Shown here in pieces: positions 6,907 through 53,670 of a stretch of 64,000 bases of DNA. Both the position numbers and the translations under genes were made by a program. Where the stretch lies: assembly GCA_030838475.1 (NCBI GenBank), contig JAUZFP010000051.1:1-64000 (forward strand), written 5' to 3'. Every line of letters begins with the position of its first letter. Position 1 is the first letter of the stretch. The notes under the pieces were generated by a model, which saw only the letters and a list, made by a program, of their open reading frames with translations, did not search any database and was not told the origin of the DNA. Source of the stretch: Actinomycetota bacterium (GTDB taxonomy: Bacteria; Actinomycetota; Actinomycetes; Actinomycetales; Microbacteriaceae).

Positions 6907-7973
6907 CGACCTACCTGCTTGCCGGCGGTGGAACCGCCGGGCACGTCAACCCGTTGCTCGCGGTCGCGGATCGAATCCTGCAACGAAACCCAACCGACAC
7001 CGTGCTCGTGCTCGGCACCAGGGAGGGTTTGGAGGCGCGTCTCGTGCCCGACCGCGGATATGAGCTGCTGACCATCGAACGCCTGCCGTTTCCACGACGG
7101 CTCGGTCGCGCGGCGCTCGCATTCCCAGGGCGGTTCCGTCGCGCGGTCGCACAGACCCGGGGCTACCTGGTCGACCGCAAGGTGGACGTGGTGGTCGGCT
7201 TCGGCGGCTACGCCTCCGCTCCGGCGTACCGCGCCGCCCGTGCCCTCGGCGTGCCGCTCGTGATCCACGAGGCCAATGCACGTGCGGGTCTCGCGAACCG
7301 GCTGGGAGCCCGTTACACGGACCGCGTCGGGATCGTGTTTCCCGAGACGCGCCTGCGCTCGTCCACGGTGGTCGGCATGCCGCTGCGCCGCGAGATCGAG
7401 CAGCTGGACCGTGCGCTGAGCCGCCCGGACGCCGCGAAATTCTTTGGGCTGGATGCCGCGAAGCCAACCCTGCTCGTCACGGGTGGCTCGACCGGAGCGC
7501 GATCGATCAATCGAGCGGTGTTCGACGCGATTGATTCGATCCTCGCCACCGGCTGGCAGGTGCTGCACATTGCCGGCAACGGGTCGGAGCTTCCCGAGTC
7601 GCCCAGGGCCAACTATCACATCCTCAACTACTGTGACCGAATGGAGTTGGCGCTGGCGGCCGCCGACCTCGCCGTGGCGCGCTCCGGCTCCGTCACTCTC
7701 AGCGAGTTCGCGGCGGTCGGGCTTCCGGCCGTGTTCGTTCCGTACCCGGTCGGCAATGGCGAGCAGCGGTACAACGCGGCCGACGCCGTCCGGGTTGGCG
7801 GCGCGATCCTGGTCGATGACGCCGCCTTCACCCCCGAGTGGATTCGCGCGACGCTCGTGCCGCTCCTTCGCGATCGCGACGCGGTCGAGCGAATGTCCAT
7901 GGCGATCAGTCGGGTCGGCAGCAGGGATGGAGCAGATCGCATGACGGACCTGGTGCTGGGCGCCGCCCGGTAA
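6903..7973 (+). CDS. murG: Undecaprenyldiphospho-MurNAc-pentapeptide GlcNAc transferase (MurG)
   Basis: Peripheral membrane GT28 glycosyltransferase converting lipid I to lipid II with UDP-GlcNAc. About 356 residues. The N-terminal glycine-rich loop [13 protein letters not shown], the GFGGYASAP stretch, and the C-terminal nucleotide-binding region with [25 protein letters not shown] are all present. The GTG start at 6903 overlaps the ftsW stop as GTGA. Its TAA stop supplies the first bases of the apparent murC -10 element. Confidence 0.97.
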
Positions 7974-7976
7974 AAT
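7971..7976 (+). promoter_or_regulatory. -10 element TAAAAT of a leaderless murC transcript
   Basis: TAAAAT ends 8 bases before the murC ATG at 7985, and no Shine-Dalgarno sequence precedes that ATG. The hexamer starts with the TAA stop codon of murG. This gives murC a promoter of its own inside the cluster. No convincing -35 element was found. Confidence 0.55.
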
Positions 7977-7984
7977 CGACCCTG

Positions 7985-9382
7985 ATGATCAAGCCCGACC
8001 TCTCCCAGGAGCTGCCCGCGCAGCTCGGCTCCCTGCACTTCGTCGGAATCGGCGGGTCCGGCATGAGCGGGATCGCGCGACTCTTCCTCGCCGCCGGTCA
8101 CCGGGTTACCGGGTCCGACCGCGGCGAGAACCACAACACCGAGGCTCTTCGTGAGCTCGGCGCTACGGTCTCCATCGGTCACGACGCCGCGAACCTTGGC
8201 GACGCCGACACGCTCGTCTACACCGGCGCGCTCTGGCCAGACAATCCCGAGTATCTCGCGGCCGTCGAGCGCGGAATCCCGACCCTGCACCGCTCGCAGG
8301 CGCTGGCCTGGCTGATCAACGGGCAGCGTCTCATCGCCGTCGCGGGTGCGCACGGCAAGACGACGTCCACCGGAATGATCATCACCGCCCTTCGGGAACT
8401 GGGCGCCGACCCGAGTTTTGTCAACGGCGGCGTGATCGAATCCCTCGGTGTGAGTTCGGCGCACGGCGAGGGCGAGATCTTCGTCGTGGAGGCGGACGAA
8501 TCGGACGGAACTTTCCTGCTGTACGACACTGCCGTCGCCCTCGTAACCAACGTCGACGCAGACCACCTGGACCACTATGGTTCGCACGAGGCATTTGACG
8601 CGGCATTCGTGCGTTTCGCAAACGCGGCATCCGAACTCGTTGTGACCTCGAGTGACGACGTCGGTGCGGTCCGGATGACGGCGGGCCTGGTCGGCAAGCG
8701 GATCATCACCTTCGGCGAGGCCGAGACCGCGGACGTGCGCCTGCACAGCGTCACGACGGTCGGTCCGGTGACCTTTTCCGTTGCCTGGCAGGGTGCAGAT
8801 TACGAAATCCGGTTGCTCGTGCCCGGTCATCACAACGCTCGCAACGCCGCGGGGGCCTTCGCGGTCCTTGTCGGGATGGGATTCGACCCGGCCGGCATCG
8901 TCGCGGGGCTCGAGACATTCGGCGGCACGGAGCGCCGCTTCGAGTTGCACGGCGTGGTTCGGGGGGTCAGCGTGTACGACGACTACTCGCATCACCCCAC
9001 CGAGGTCGCGGTCGCACTCCGCGCCGCCCGCACGGTCGTCGGCGATGGTCGGATCATCGCGGTGCATCAGCCGCACCTGTACTCGCGCACGAAGATGATG
9101 GCGGGTGAGTTCGCGGAGGCTTACGAGTCCCTCGCCGATCACACCATCGTCCTCGACGTCTACGGCGCGCGGGAGGATCCCGTCCCCGGCGTTACGGGCG
9201 CTCTGGTCGCCGAACGGTTTACGGATCCCGCACGAGTGGACTATCTGCCCGACTGGCAGCAGGCCGCCGACCGTGCCGCCGCGCTGGCCGAGGATGGCGA
9301 CATCATCATGACGCTGAGTTGCGGCGACGTGTACCGGATCGTGCCCCAGATTCTCGCGTCCCTCGGGCAACGGCCTGCGTGA
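7985..9382 (+). CDS. murC: UDP-N-acetylmuramate--L-alanine ligase (MurC)
   Basis: Adds L-alanine to UDP-MurNAc, the first step of stem-peptide synthesis. About 465 residues with the N-terminal [16 protein letters not shown] Rossmann motif, the P-loop [11 protein letters not shown] near residue 120, [11 protein letters not shown], and [12 protein letters not shown] in the C-terminal domain. The ATG at 7985 fits the family N-terminus. It has no Shine-Dalgarno sequence but a TAAAAT hexamer 8 bases upstream, so a leaderless transcript is likely. The 3' end overlaps the ftsQ start as GTGA. Confidence 0.96.
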
Positions 9383-27794: not shown

Positions 27795-28235
27795 ATGGGT
27801 GCAACCTGGAAACTGTTTCTCATCCTCGCGATCTTCTGTTTCGCGGCCTGCGCCGGCTACATCGTGTGGGGCATTTGGGACCCGACCTTCGGCAACGCGT
27901 CCGACCAGGGCGGCTGGGAGCCGGTCGGCGCCGTCGGACTCGCCCTCGTCGGGGCGCTCTGCACGCTCATCGCCTTCTATACGAACCGCCTGCACCACGC
28001 GCAGGGTGGTGAGCTTCCCGAGGACCGCAACGACGCTCTCATCGACGACGGCGAGGCCGAGCAGGGCTTCTTCAGCCCGTGGAGCTGGTGGCCGGTAACG
28101 CTCGGTGCATCCATCGCCCTCATGTTCCTGGGTCTCGCGATCGGCAACTGGATCTGCTTCATCGCCGTACCGCTCGTCGCCGTCAGCGTCATCGGGCTCA
28201 TCTACGAGTACCAGCGCGGCAACTTCGGGCACTAG
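27795..28235 (+). CDS. ctaF: Actinobacterial cytochrome c oxidase subunit IV (CtaF)
   Basis: Small accessory subunit of the actinobacterial aa3 oxidase. 146 residues with four membrane segments, for example LFLILAIFCFAACAGYIVWG and a C-terminal pair near 95-140. It is placed two bases after ctaD. The sequence ends YEYQRGNFGH, typical of the family. A strong terminator follows. Confidence 0.94.
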   Translation: MGATWKLFLILAIFCFAACAGYIVWGIWDPTFGNASDQGGWEPVGAVGLALVGALCTLIAFYTNRLHHAQGGELPEDRNDALIDDGEAEQGFFSPWSWWPVTLGASIALMFLGLAIGNWICFIAVPLVAVSVIGLIYEYQRGNFGH

Positions 28236-28254
28236 CCGCACAACATCTCGCCGG

Positions 28255-28278
28255 GGCCGTCCTTCGGGGCGGCCTTTG
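28255..28278 (+). terminator. Rho-independent terminator after ctaF
   Basis: GGCCGTCC-TTCG-GGGCGGCC forms an 8-bp stem, with one G-U pair, closed by a UUCG tetraloop and followed by TTTG. It ends the ctaCDF operon. Confidence 0.85.
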
Positions 28279-28301: not shown

Positions 28302-28636
28302 TCCGCCAAGCGAAAAGCAGCACGGATCGGGATGTCCGCCGCTGTATTCGCGGTTGGCTCGAGCATTGCGGTCGAAGCTTCGCGTTCAACAGGACGAATC
28401 CGGGGTTCGGAACCTTCCACAGGAGTAATTCGACCCATTTGGTCGGCACTTCCGGTTGAACGAGCACGCCGGGAGGAGATTTTCGCGGACTCGCACCAGA
28501 GGAGGAGATCTTGGTCTGCCGGCGACCGGATGTCCTCCTCAAGGCGGGTGGCCGTCCCGAATACGGGTCTTTGGGACGCGACAAACCTCGTAAACCGGCA
28601 CCCCGCCGACATCCGTGCAGCCTTTTGTTTGGCGGA
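28302..28636. repeat. 335-bp non-coding element with imperfect terminal inverted repeats
   Basis: The 468-base gap between ctaF and qcrB contains arms 28302-28327 and 28611-28636. These pair 22 of 26 bases as inverted repeats (TCCGCCAAGCGAAAAGCAGC and its counterpart), and similarity continues inward with a 6-base indel. Inside are two direct copies of GGAGGAGAT (28472, 28501) and a hairpin GAGGAGGA/TCCTCCTC (28499-28540). Weak ORFs on both strands have no ribosome binding site and no recognisable protein. It may be a decayed MITE-like element or a structured RNA. Confidence 0.5.
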
Positions 28637-28660: not shown

Positions 28661-28690
28661 AAAAGGGCCGCCCCAATGGGACGGCCCTTA
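28661..28690 (-). terminator. Rho-independent terminator of ctaE-qcrCAB
   Basis: On the minus strand GGGCCGTCCC-ATT-GGGGCGGCCC makes a 10-bp stem with one wobble pair, followed by TTTT. The stem resembles that of the facing ctaF terminator. Confidence 0.85.
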
Positions 28691-52119: not shown

Positions 52120-53670
52120 GCGCGTTGAGATCGACGCAACGATGAGCCCACCGAGTCCGAGCACGGAGACAAGCTGCTCGATGGGCTCCCCCAGCCACGT
52201 CGCCGGCGTGATGGTGGTGCTGAGCGGCACGGTAGCGACCAGGGCGCCGGCCTTGTAGGTCGGGAGTTGTGACACGGTCTTGCCGTTCGGCAGGACGATC
52301 GCAGTTGTTCCAACGGTCGAGTCGTTCACGAGCGAACGGCCGAGCTCCATGGCTCGGATGCGCGCAATCTCCAGTTGTTGGATGCTCTCGTCGGTGTGGC
52401 CGAAATCCCCGTTGTTGGTTTGGGCGATGAGGATCTGGGCGCCGGATTTGATCGAGTCCCGCATCACCGTGTCATCCGTGATGTCGAAGCAGATGTCGAT
52501 CCCGGCGATGACCCCATTCACGTTGAAGACCGTATCGGTCGTTCCGGGCGTGTAGTCCCGGCCGACGAGGTCGATCAGGCCGGGCGCGAACGCGCGCCAG
52601 ACGGCGCGGTCGGGCACGTACTCGCCGAACGGGACGGGGTGCTTCTTGTCGTAGTGGTCGACGGCGCCCTTGCCCGCCTCCCACAGCAAGGAGGTGTTGA
52701 AATATTTGGAGCCGCGGTGCTGGATGGTTCCGGCCAGCAGCGGAGCGTGCATCCGGGTGCTGATGTCGTCGAATTCGGTCGCGGCGATATCCTCGTCGGG
52801 CGCGTGGTCGGCGGCGACGGGATCGATGTCGCTCGCGCCCTCGGGCCAGATGACCATGTCGACGCCCTTGCGGCCGAACAGCGGGACCGTCGCCTTGTAC
52901 TGTGCGGCGAGCAGATCTCCGTAGTCGTGCGGGTCGAAATACCCGGCAGGACCGGCGCCCTGCACGGCCGCGACGGTGGTCGTGCCCTTCAGGGCGATCG
53001 GATACGCGGGAACCAGGACGATGAGGGCGATGGCACCGACCACGAGAATCCCGCGAACGAGTTCGGGTACGGCTATGACGAGCACTGCTTCGAGGGCCAG
53101 CGCCACCAGGAACACCATGACGAAACTCACGCCGGAGATGCCGATCCACGAGAACAGGCTCGAGAAGGGGCTCTGCGACTGCGACTCGGCGACGCGGGCC
53201 CAGGAGAAGCCGCCATACGGCCACACACTCGCGATTCCCTCGCGCAGGGTCCACAGGCCGGCGACTACCGCGGGACGCCAGCCGAGACGCCCGAGCGGCG
53301 AGATCCAGACCAGCGGGACCACCCGATACGCGATCGAGATCAGGACCGCTCCGCCCCCGACGAAGATCGACTCGAGAGTGGACAGGGCCGCGAGCGGGAC
53401 GGGCCCGAGGAACAGGGCCGCCCACCCGATCTGTACGAGGTAGAAGGTGAGTCCGCCGACGAATCCGACCAGAAACGCCCCGCCGGGACGCCTCCCGCGA
53501 AGGCTGACGAGGAAGATCCCAATTCCGACGAAGGTGAGCGGCCACCAGGAGACATCCGGGAATCCCGCGTCCATGATGGGACCGGATGTTGCCGCCAGCA
53601 GAACGGCGGCCCAGAGCGGACGCACCCGCACGTCCGCCATCACCGCGGTCGGGCGAAATTCACGGTTCAT
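52096..53670 (-). CDS. lnt: Apolipoprotein N-acyltransferase (Lnt)
   Basis: Adds the N-terminal acyl chain to lipoproteins, the step after LspA. 524 residues. Six or so membrane segments fill the first 210 residues. A nitrilase-like domain follows with the catalytic Glu in VIWPEGASD, Lys in YDKKHPVPFGEYVP, and Cys in IAGIDICFDITDD. A C-terminal helix ends it. ATG 53670 has TAGGAT nine bases upstream. An ATG ten codons in is the alternative. Confidence 0.93.
   Translation of the reverse strand: MNREFRPTAVMADVRVRPLWAAVLLAATSGPIMDAGFPDVSWWPLTFVGIGIFLVSLRGRRPGGAFLVGFVGGLTFYLVQIGWAALFLGPVPLAALSTLESIFVGGGAVLISIAYRVVPLVWISPLGRLGWRPAVVAGLWTLREGIASVWPYGGFSWARVAESQSQSPFSSLFSWIGISGVSFVMVFLVALALEAVLVIAVPELVRGILVVGAIALIVLVPAYPIALKGTTTVAAVQGAGPAGYFDPHDYGDLLAAQYKATVPLFGRKGVDMVIWPEGASDIDPVAADHAPDEDIAATEFDDISTRMHAPLLAGTIQHRGSKYFNTSLLWEAGKGAVDHYDKKHPVPFGEYVPDRAVWRAFAPGLIDLVGRDYTPGTTDTVFNVNGVIAGIDICFDITDDTVMRDSIKSGAQILIAQTNNGDFGHTDESIQQLEIARIRAMELGRSLVNDSTVGTTAIVLPNGKTVSQLPTYKAGALVATVPLSTTITPATWLGEPIEQLVSVLGLGGLIVASISTRKRKERQR

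Follow-up and report, generated by a model that had tools for sequence, protein, structure and literature searches.

A composite palindromic repeat in the ctaF-qcrB gap of a Microbacteriaceae genome and the association of its module A with DUF559-type genes encoding a putative Vsr-fold nuclease

What is the 335-bp stretch of DNA that separates two facing respiratory operons in a member of the Microbacteriaceae, and what could have brought it there? The locus lies in a window of 64,000 nucleotides, the whole stretch that we analyzed (contig JAUZFP010000051.1 of assembly GCA_030838475.1, positions 1 to 64,000). An initial annotation had described a noncoding element with degenerate terminal inverted arms, flanked by two good terminators and possibly representing a decayed MITE-like element or a structured RNA. 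Much of that description held. The ctaF stop (28235) and the qcrB stop (28704) are 468 bases apart, the terminal arms pair at 22 of 26 positions, and their similarity extends inward, with a local alignment score of 22 versus a maximum of 15 among 300 shuffles. The repeated central word is also present, as GGAGGAGA at 28472 and 28501 and as TCCTCCTC at 28533. One of the two terminators was called by a scan (28253-28276, plus strand); on the other side, a GC hairpin is visible in the sequence at 28661-28690, uncalled by the scan. Specifically, the element consists of outer arms around two inner modules, A and B, each of which follows the same plan of a direct box, a second direct box, and an inverted box:

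27795-28235, plus strand: ctaF, named from its translation
28253-28276, plus strand: terminator of the ctaF side, a 10-pair hairpin followed by a T-rich tail, which flanks the element and is not part of it
28302-28327, plus strand: 5' outer arm, TCCGCCAAGCGAAAAGCAGCACGGAT, paired with the 3' arm; a related arm occurs in composite copies L002, L004, and L007
28382-28466, plus strand: module A, with CAACAGGA at 28387-28394, CCACAGGA at 28417-28424, and inverted TCCGGTTG at 28451-28458 (spacing 30 + 34)
28469-28551, plus strand: module B, with GGAGGAGA at 28472-28479 and 28501-28508 and inverted TGTCCTCC at 28531-28538 (spacing 29 + 30)
28573-28590, plus strand: conserved block, GGGACGCGACAAACCTCG (alignment A2), present in several composite copies and twice in L002
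28611-28636, plus strand: 3' outer arm, an inverted copy of the 5' arm; a related 3' end occurs in L003 and L007
28704-30389, minus strand: qcrB, named from its translation

The host genome contains further copies of the element at about 18 additional sites. The resulting set of about 19 comprises ten copies with both modules, six with module A alone, and three with module B alone (L027 to L029). In a plain DNA search of the host genome, the copies returned were diverged (71 and 67% identical). A model built from five copies, themselves among the 19 host places (model R1), matched 16 places with E ≤ 1.1e-6, of which ten cover both modules and six A alone, and the three B-alone places with E values from 2.6e-4 to 0.010. 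Module A of the window was matched by R1 and by a second model, R2 (78.1 bits at 28380-28470), and module B was matched by model R3 (66.3 bits). A weak, shortened module A match elsewhere in the window (52281-52342; 18.4 bits, E = 0.0014) may be due to chance.

Across copies, conserved boxes are separated by variable sequence at near-constant spacing. When boxes were sought within set ranges, and with L015 left out, the spacing between the first and second boxes of module A (R1-R2) was 30 in 15/15 host copies measured, and that between the second box and the inverted one (R2-R') was 34 in 13 copies and 35 in 2. For module B, the R1-R2 spacing was 29 in seven of eight host copies and 30 in the remaining one. 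The outer arms and the third block are present in several composite copies, with the arms degenerate or missing in some. With regard to a CGTC tag like the one at an end of the short CGTC REP hairpin, GACG adjoins box R in part of the copies only. The repeats are mainly extragenic and palindromic, often occur in mosaics, and in many cases are placed after a stop codon rather than before a start. Crude longest-ORF calls around the host copies were in error for at least two of them (L012 and L014) and were left out. The element is thus one composite copy of a dispersed, mosaic repeat family whose modules also occur alone.

These results preserve the spirit of the MITE-like label, in that the element belongs to a short, nonautonomous, noncoding, and dispersed repeat whose terminal inverted arms are degenerate. 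However, it does not qualify as a classical MITE. The best-conserved unit shared among copies is the pair of inner modules and not the arms, there is no link to a classical transposase, and the gene associated with the repeat (see below) is of the Vsr-like nuclease type (DUF559). By eye, we saw no target duplication in the repeat copies, and no clean empty site was found.

Five other species of the same genus had no convincing copy; their best matches (E = 0.0072 with R1 and 3.7e-4 with R2) were not counted. A DNA search gave two matches outside the host genome, both short (27 and 31 bases). The ctaF-qcrB interval had other contents in the three congeners examined. Other large palindromes or repeats were observed in the interval of relatives (L211, L214, and L221), for example GTCTGCCCCCGGGTGATGCG in genome G005, as though the gap served as a landing place. 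R2, which was built from 31 copies of module A, matched 83 of 398 genomes in the bacterial family at E ≤ 0.01. Matches below 1e-6 occurred in 11/398 genomes, 6 of which had contributed copies to the model. Because scoring covered no more than 10 places per genome, copy numbers outside the host are lower bounds. Module A also occurs in frame within the dnaX reading frame, with two copies in genome G065, one clear copy in G194, and none in G285. In two related species (L226, 2405-2741; L227, 2336-2706), the module A copies lie in the dnaX linker, a region that is hypervariable from one species to the next. Because the linker is so variable, it offers no clean insertion boundary.

Could the family have spread because it acts at the RNA level, either as a structured RNA or as a terminator of transcription in both directions at 3' ends? 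On either strand, the element folds better than any of its 100 dinucleotide shuffles (z = -4.46 and -3.35), and the position of several copies after stop codons would suit such a function. Against this, module A shows little covariation (two of eight pairs changed on both sides; 4/248 cells), and its boxes are conserved in sequence. Rfam had no family match inside 28302-28636 at E ≤ 1, and two modules lie within the dnaX reading frame of G065. An RNA function would also leave the gene-specific repeats around DUF559 genes, described below, unexplained. We consider an explanation at the RNA level quite improbable.

The copies of module A led outside the window to a candidate partner gene. Contig 81 of the host genome has two A copies separated by about 1 kb (7092-7182, plus strand; 8093-8183, minus strand), which enclose a gene at 7127-8047 whose product has an AbiEi-like N terminus and a weak DUF559-like end. 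A homologous gene in genome G113, with a product 39% identical to the contig-81 protein, is likewise enclosed by two A copies. We searched for both enclosed proteins in 32 genomes, 16 of them repeat-bearing and 16 chosen without the repeat. Six genes scored over 300 bits (590 to 303) in 6/32 genomes, and the next best scored 168 bits. All six of these clade genes, four of which were found independently of the repeat, fell in repeat-bearing genomes (6/16, compared with 0/16 without the repeat). In each of the six, a same-strand copy of module A preceded the match by 46 to 104 bp, and in L128 and L129 the module was also found downstream of the gene. Among 65 DUF559 loci, R2 at E ≤ 0.01 recovered the six clade genes along with three weak matches (L134, L157, and L164). 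A gene over 300 bits was absent from 10 of the 16 repeat-bearing genomes searched, which may reflect loss, incomplete assemblies, or another carrier. DUF559 paralogs are common in genomes without module A, too.

In Mycetocola miduiensis (L133/L207), homology of the clade gene in its frame extends only to query residue 221, while the upstream repeat is intact; this gene may be truncated or frameshifted. A module also occurs near the DUF559 genes of L094 and L098, but their products look unlike the clade proteins, and these genes were not used as evidence. For module B, repeats beside the DUF559 genes of L154 and L155 (GGGAGGGAGTTTTTC) looked by eye like good relatives. We dropped this candidate, and with it the claim of a partner for module B, because model R3 had no match at E ≤ 0.1 among the 65 DUF559 loci.

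DUF559 is a Pfam family of unknown function. The Pfam model scored above its cutoff for protein P0001 and below it for P0002. Among 14 members, MTES_1575 matched 12 at E ≤ 0.01 and AbiEi_4 matched 7. An AlphaFold2 model from nine relatives had a mean pLDDT of 74.3, with higher values at the C terminus. The C-terminal domain of the model resembles the homing endonuclease I-Bth0305I (Z = 12.7 over 95 residues; rmsd, 2.6), the putative endonuclease 3hrl (Z = 12.4), and Vsr of Escherichia coli (Z = 10.3), and its N-terminal domain resembles a winged helix with lower Z scores. Residues E194, D221, E231, D233, and H238 (P0002 numbering) are invariant or nearly so in the 14 members. Together, the conserved residues and the modeled Vsr fold fit what would be expected of an active nuclease. 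An MTES_1575 Vsr-type domain has been described in a fusion (PMC3710099), and a DUF559 protein of Caulobacter has been proposed to act in mismatch repair (PMC12907096).

The combination of a winged helix with upstream boxes could also be read as regulation: the DUF559 protein might be an AbiEi-like autoregulator, with the upstream boxes as its operator and the dispersed copies as additional binding sites or fossils of such sites. Module A always lies just upstream of the clade genes, the strict spacing of its boxes suits a protein-DNA complex, and half of the members match AbiEi_4. Yet the downstream copies in L128 and L129, the repeats on both flanks of most paralogs, and the many dispersed copies that follow a stop codon speak against an operator, as does the conservation of the catalytic residues. 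Overall, we regard autoregulation as unlikely.

Repeats on both flanks turned out to be common around DUF559 genes. We used a two-flank test, with no preset word, in which a 12-mer had to occur together with its inverse in one flank and both had to recur in the opposite flank. From 81 places, 16 that were partial or at a contig edge were left out; of the 65 kept, three had too short a flank, leaving 62 loci. Allowing ≤4 mismatches in total, 43/62 DUF559 loci were positive versus 0/80 control genes (Fisher P = 9e-22, a value that overstates independence because the 62 loci include orthologs), and 14/62 were positive with no mismatch. A single-flank hairpin test placed 59/129 DUF559 flanks at or above the 95th percentile of 220 control stretches; ordinary terminators also raise this score, so we relied on the two-flank test instead. 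The words differ between paralog lineages (e.g., GCGGATCAGG, GAACTACCGGAG, TGCACGGATCC, and TTGTCGAAAATTC). A second DUF559 gene of the host (contig 24, L158) and its apparent ortholog in congener G001 (contig 8, L191) occupy seemingly the same genomic place, and each is bordered on both sides by an inverted repeat of 15 to 17 bases; the two flanks of a gene have the same word, and the two species have different ones. DUF559/MTES_1575-type genes of the bacterial family thus commonly have a private inverted repeat on each side, with a word that varies by paralog.

We also applied the test to further sets of genes. Among nine further loci, three of them on Tsukamurella plasmids (L204 was left out for its short flank), 1/9 passed the strict cut and 7/9 passed a looser one (6 mismatches), compared with 0/80 and 7/80 controls. 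For plasmid-borne short DUF559 genes from other phyla (12 of 55 places), the counts were 3/12 (strict) versus 0/80 and 6/12 (looser) versus 7/80, and an 11-mer was shared in at least five copies in 6/12 versus 0/75. The same pattern on these plasmids is suggestive only, as the counts may be inflated by G or C runs. We further observed that in alphaproteobacteria, Deinococcus, and cyanobacteria, the short DUF559 genes of plasmid loci L242 to L253 often adjoin common GC-rich palindromes of the CCCTCTCCC..GGGAGAGGG type.

It is conceivable that DUF559 genes and palindromic repeats are simply neighbors without functional connection, sharing intergenic hot spots that tolerate insertions. The variability of the ctaF-qcrB interval in relatives and the many DUF559 genes without module A would agree with such cohabitation. 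A shared hot spot is hard to reconcile with a word that is particular to the gene lineage, that is the same on both flanks, and that differs between orthologs in both flanks at once, and we find chance proximity very improbable.

We favor a different explanation. The element is probably a nonautonomous, BIME-like mosaic repeat, with module A as the putative cognate site of the Vsr-fold nuclease in a pairing that resembles that of REPs and RAYTs but involves an unrelated enzyme. The repeat is associated with the gene, specific to its lineage, dispersed, and fixed in geometry. Recognition, cutting, and mobilization by the encoded protein are what we infer from this. The winged helix and the Vsr/I-Bth0305I-like nuclease would read the boxes, either as a duplex or as an extruded hairpin, and nicking or cutting by the nuclease would then allow repair to copy the repeat to new places. 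A gene together with its own repeats would constitute the autonomous unit. The copy in the window would be a nonautonomous composite that settled between two convergent operons, where it may do little harm.

Several known systems share parts of this arrangement. As described in PMC3733652, GTAG REPs and their BIMEs are likewise short, dispersed palindromes that form mosaics, are mostly extragenic, lie at 3' ends and occasionally inside replication genes, and have a RAYT gene flanked by its own repeat. In contrast to RAYT, which is an HUH tyrosine transposase, the flanked gene here is of the DUF559/Vsr type with a winged helix. Furthermore, a GTAG REP is one 20- to 40-bp hairpin with a GTAG tag, whereas the unit here has direct, direct, and inverted boxes with a spacing of about 30 bases and no conserved GTAG in the consensus of module A or B. 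With I-Bth0305I, the protein shares a catalytic fold, as modeled, and the character of a nuclease whose gene could spread by cutting; it differs in that its gene lies outside an intron, has multicopy repeats on both flanks, and encodes a winged-helix N terminus. CGTC REPs are dispersed palindromes as well and, in the same paper (PMC3733652), are said to "apparently lack a dedicated transposase," with their enzyme an open question. Of 12 plasmid records carrying this repeat, 8 were inspected and 6 were annotated, and in 0/6 did a CGTC REP adjoin an annotated DUF559 gene, a weak negative because dispersed copies need not adjoin the gene.

We found no paper linking DUF559, COG2852, or Vsr-type nucleases with palindromic repeats, as judged from literature listings whose coverage leaves out most subscription papers. 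The matching repeats that often lie on both sides of DUF559-type genes suggest an overlooked partnership between this nuclease family and mobile repeats. More tentatively, such a partnership may extend well beyond this locus. DUF559/MTES_1575-type Vsr-fold nucleases could perhaps be unrecognized, widespread repeat-cognate enzymes, each lineage having a private palindromic repeat on both flanks of the gene that seeds nonautonomous mosaic copies, and they would then play a RAYT-like role for orphan palindromic repeats. If true, how palindromic repeats without an enzyme originate and spread could be tested directly with a single protein and one short piece of DNA, and it would become possible to study a nuclease/target pair whose specificity changes from paralog to paralog.
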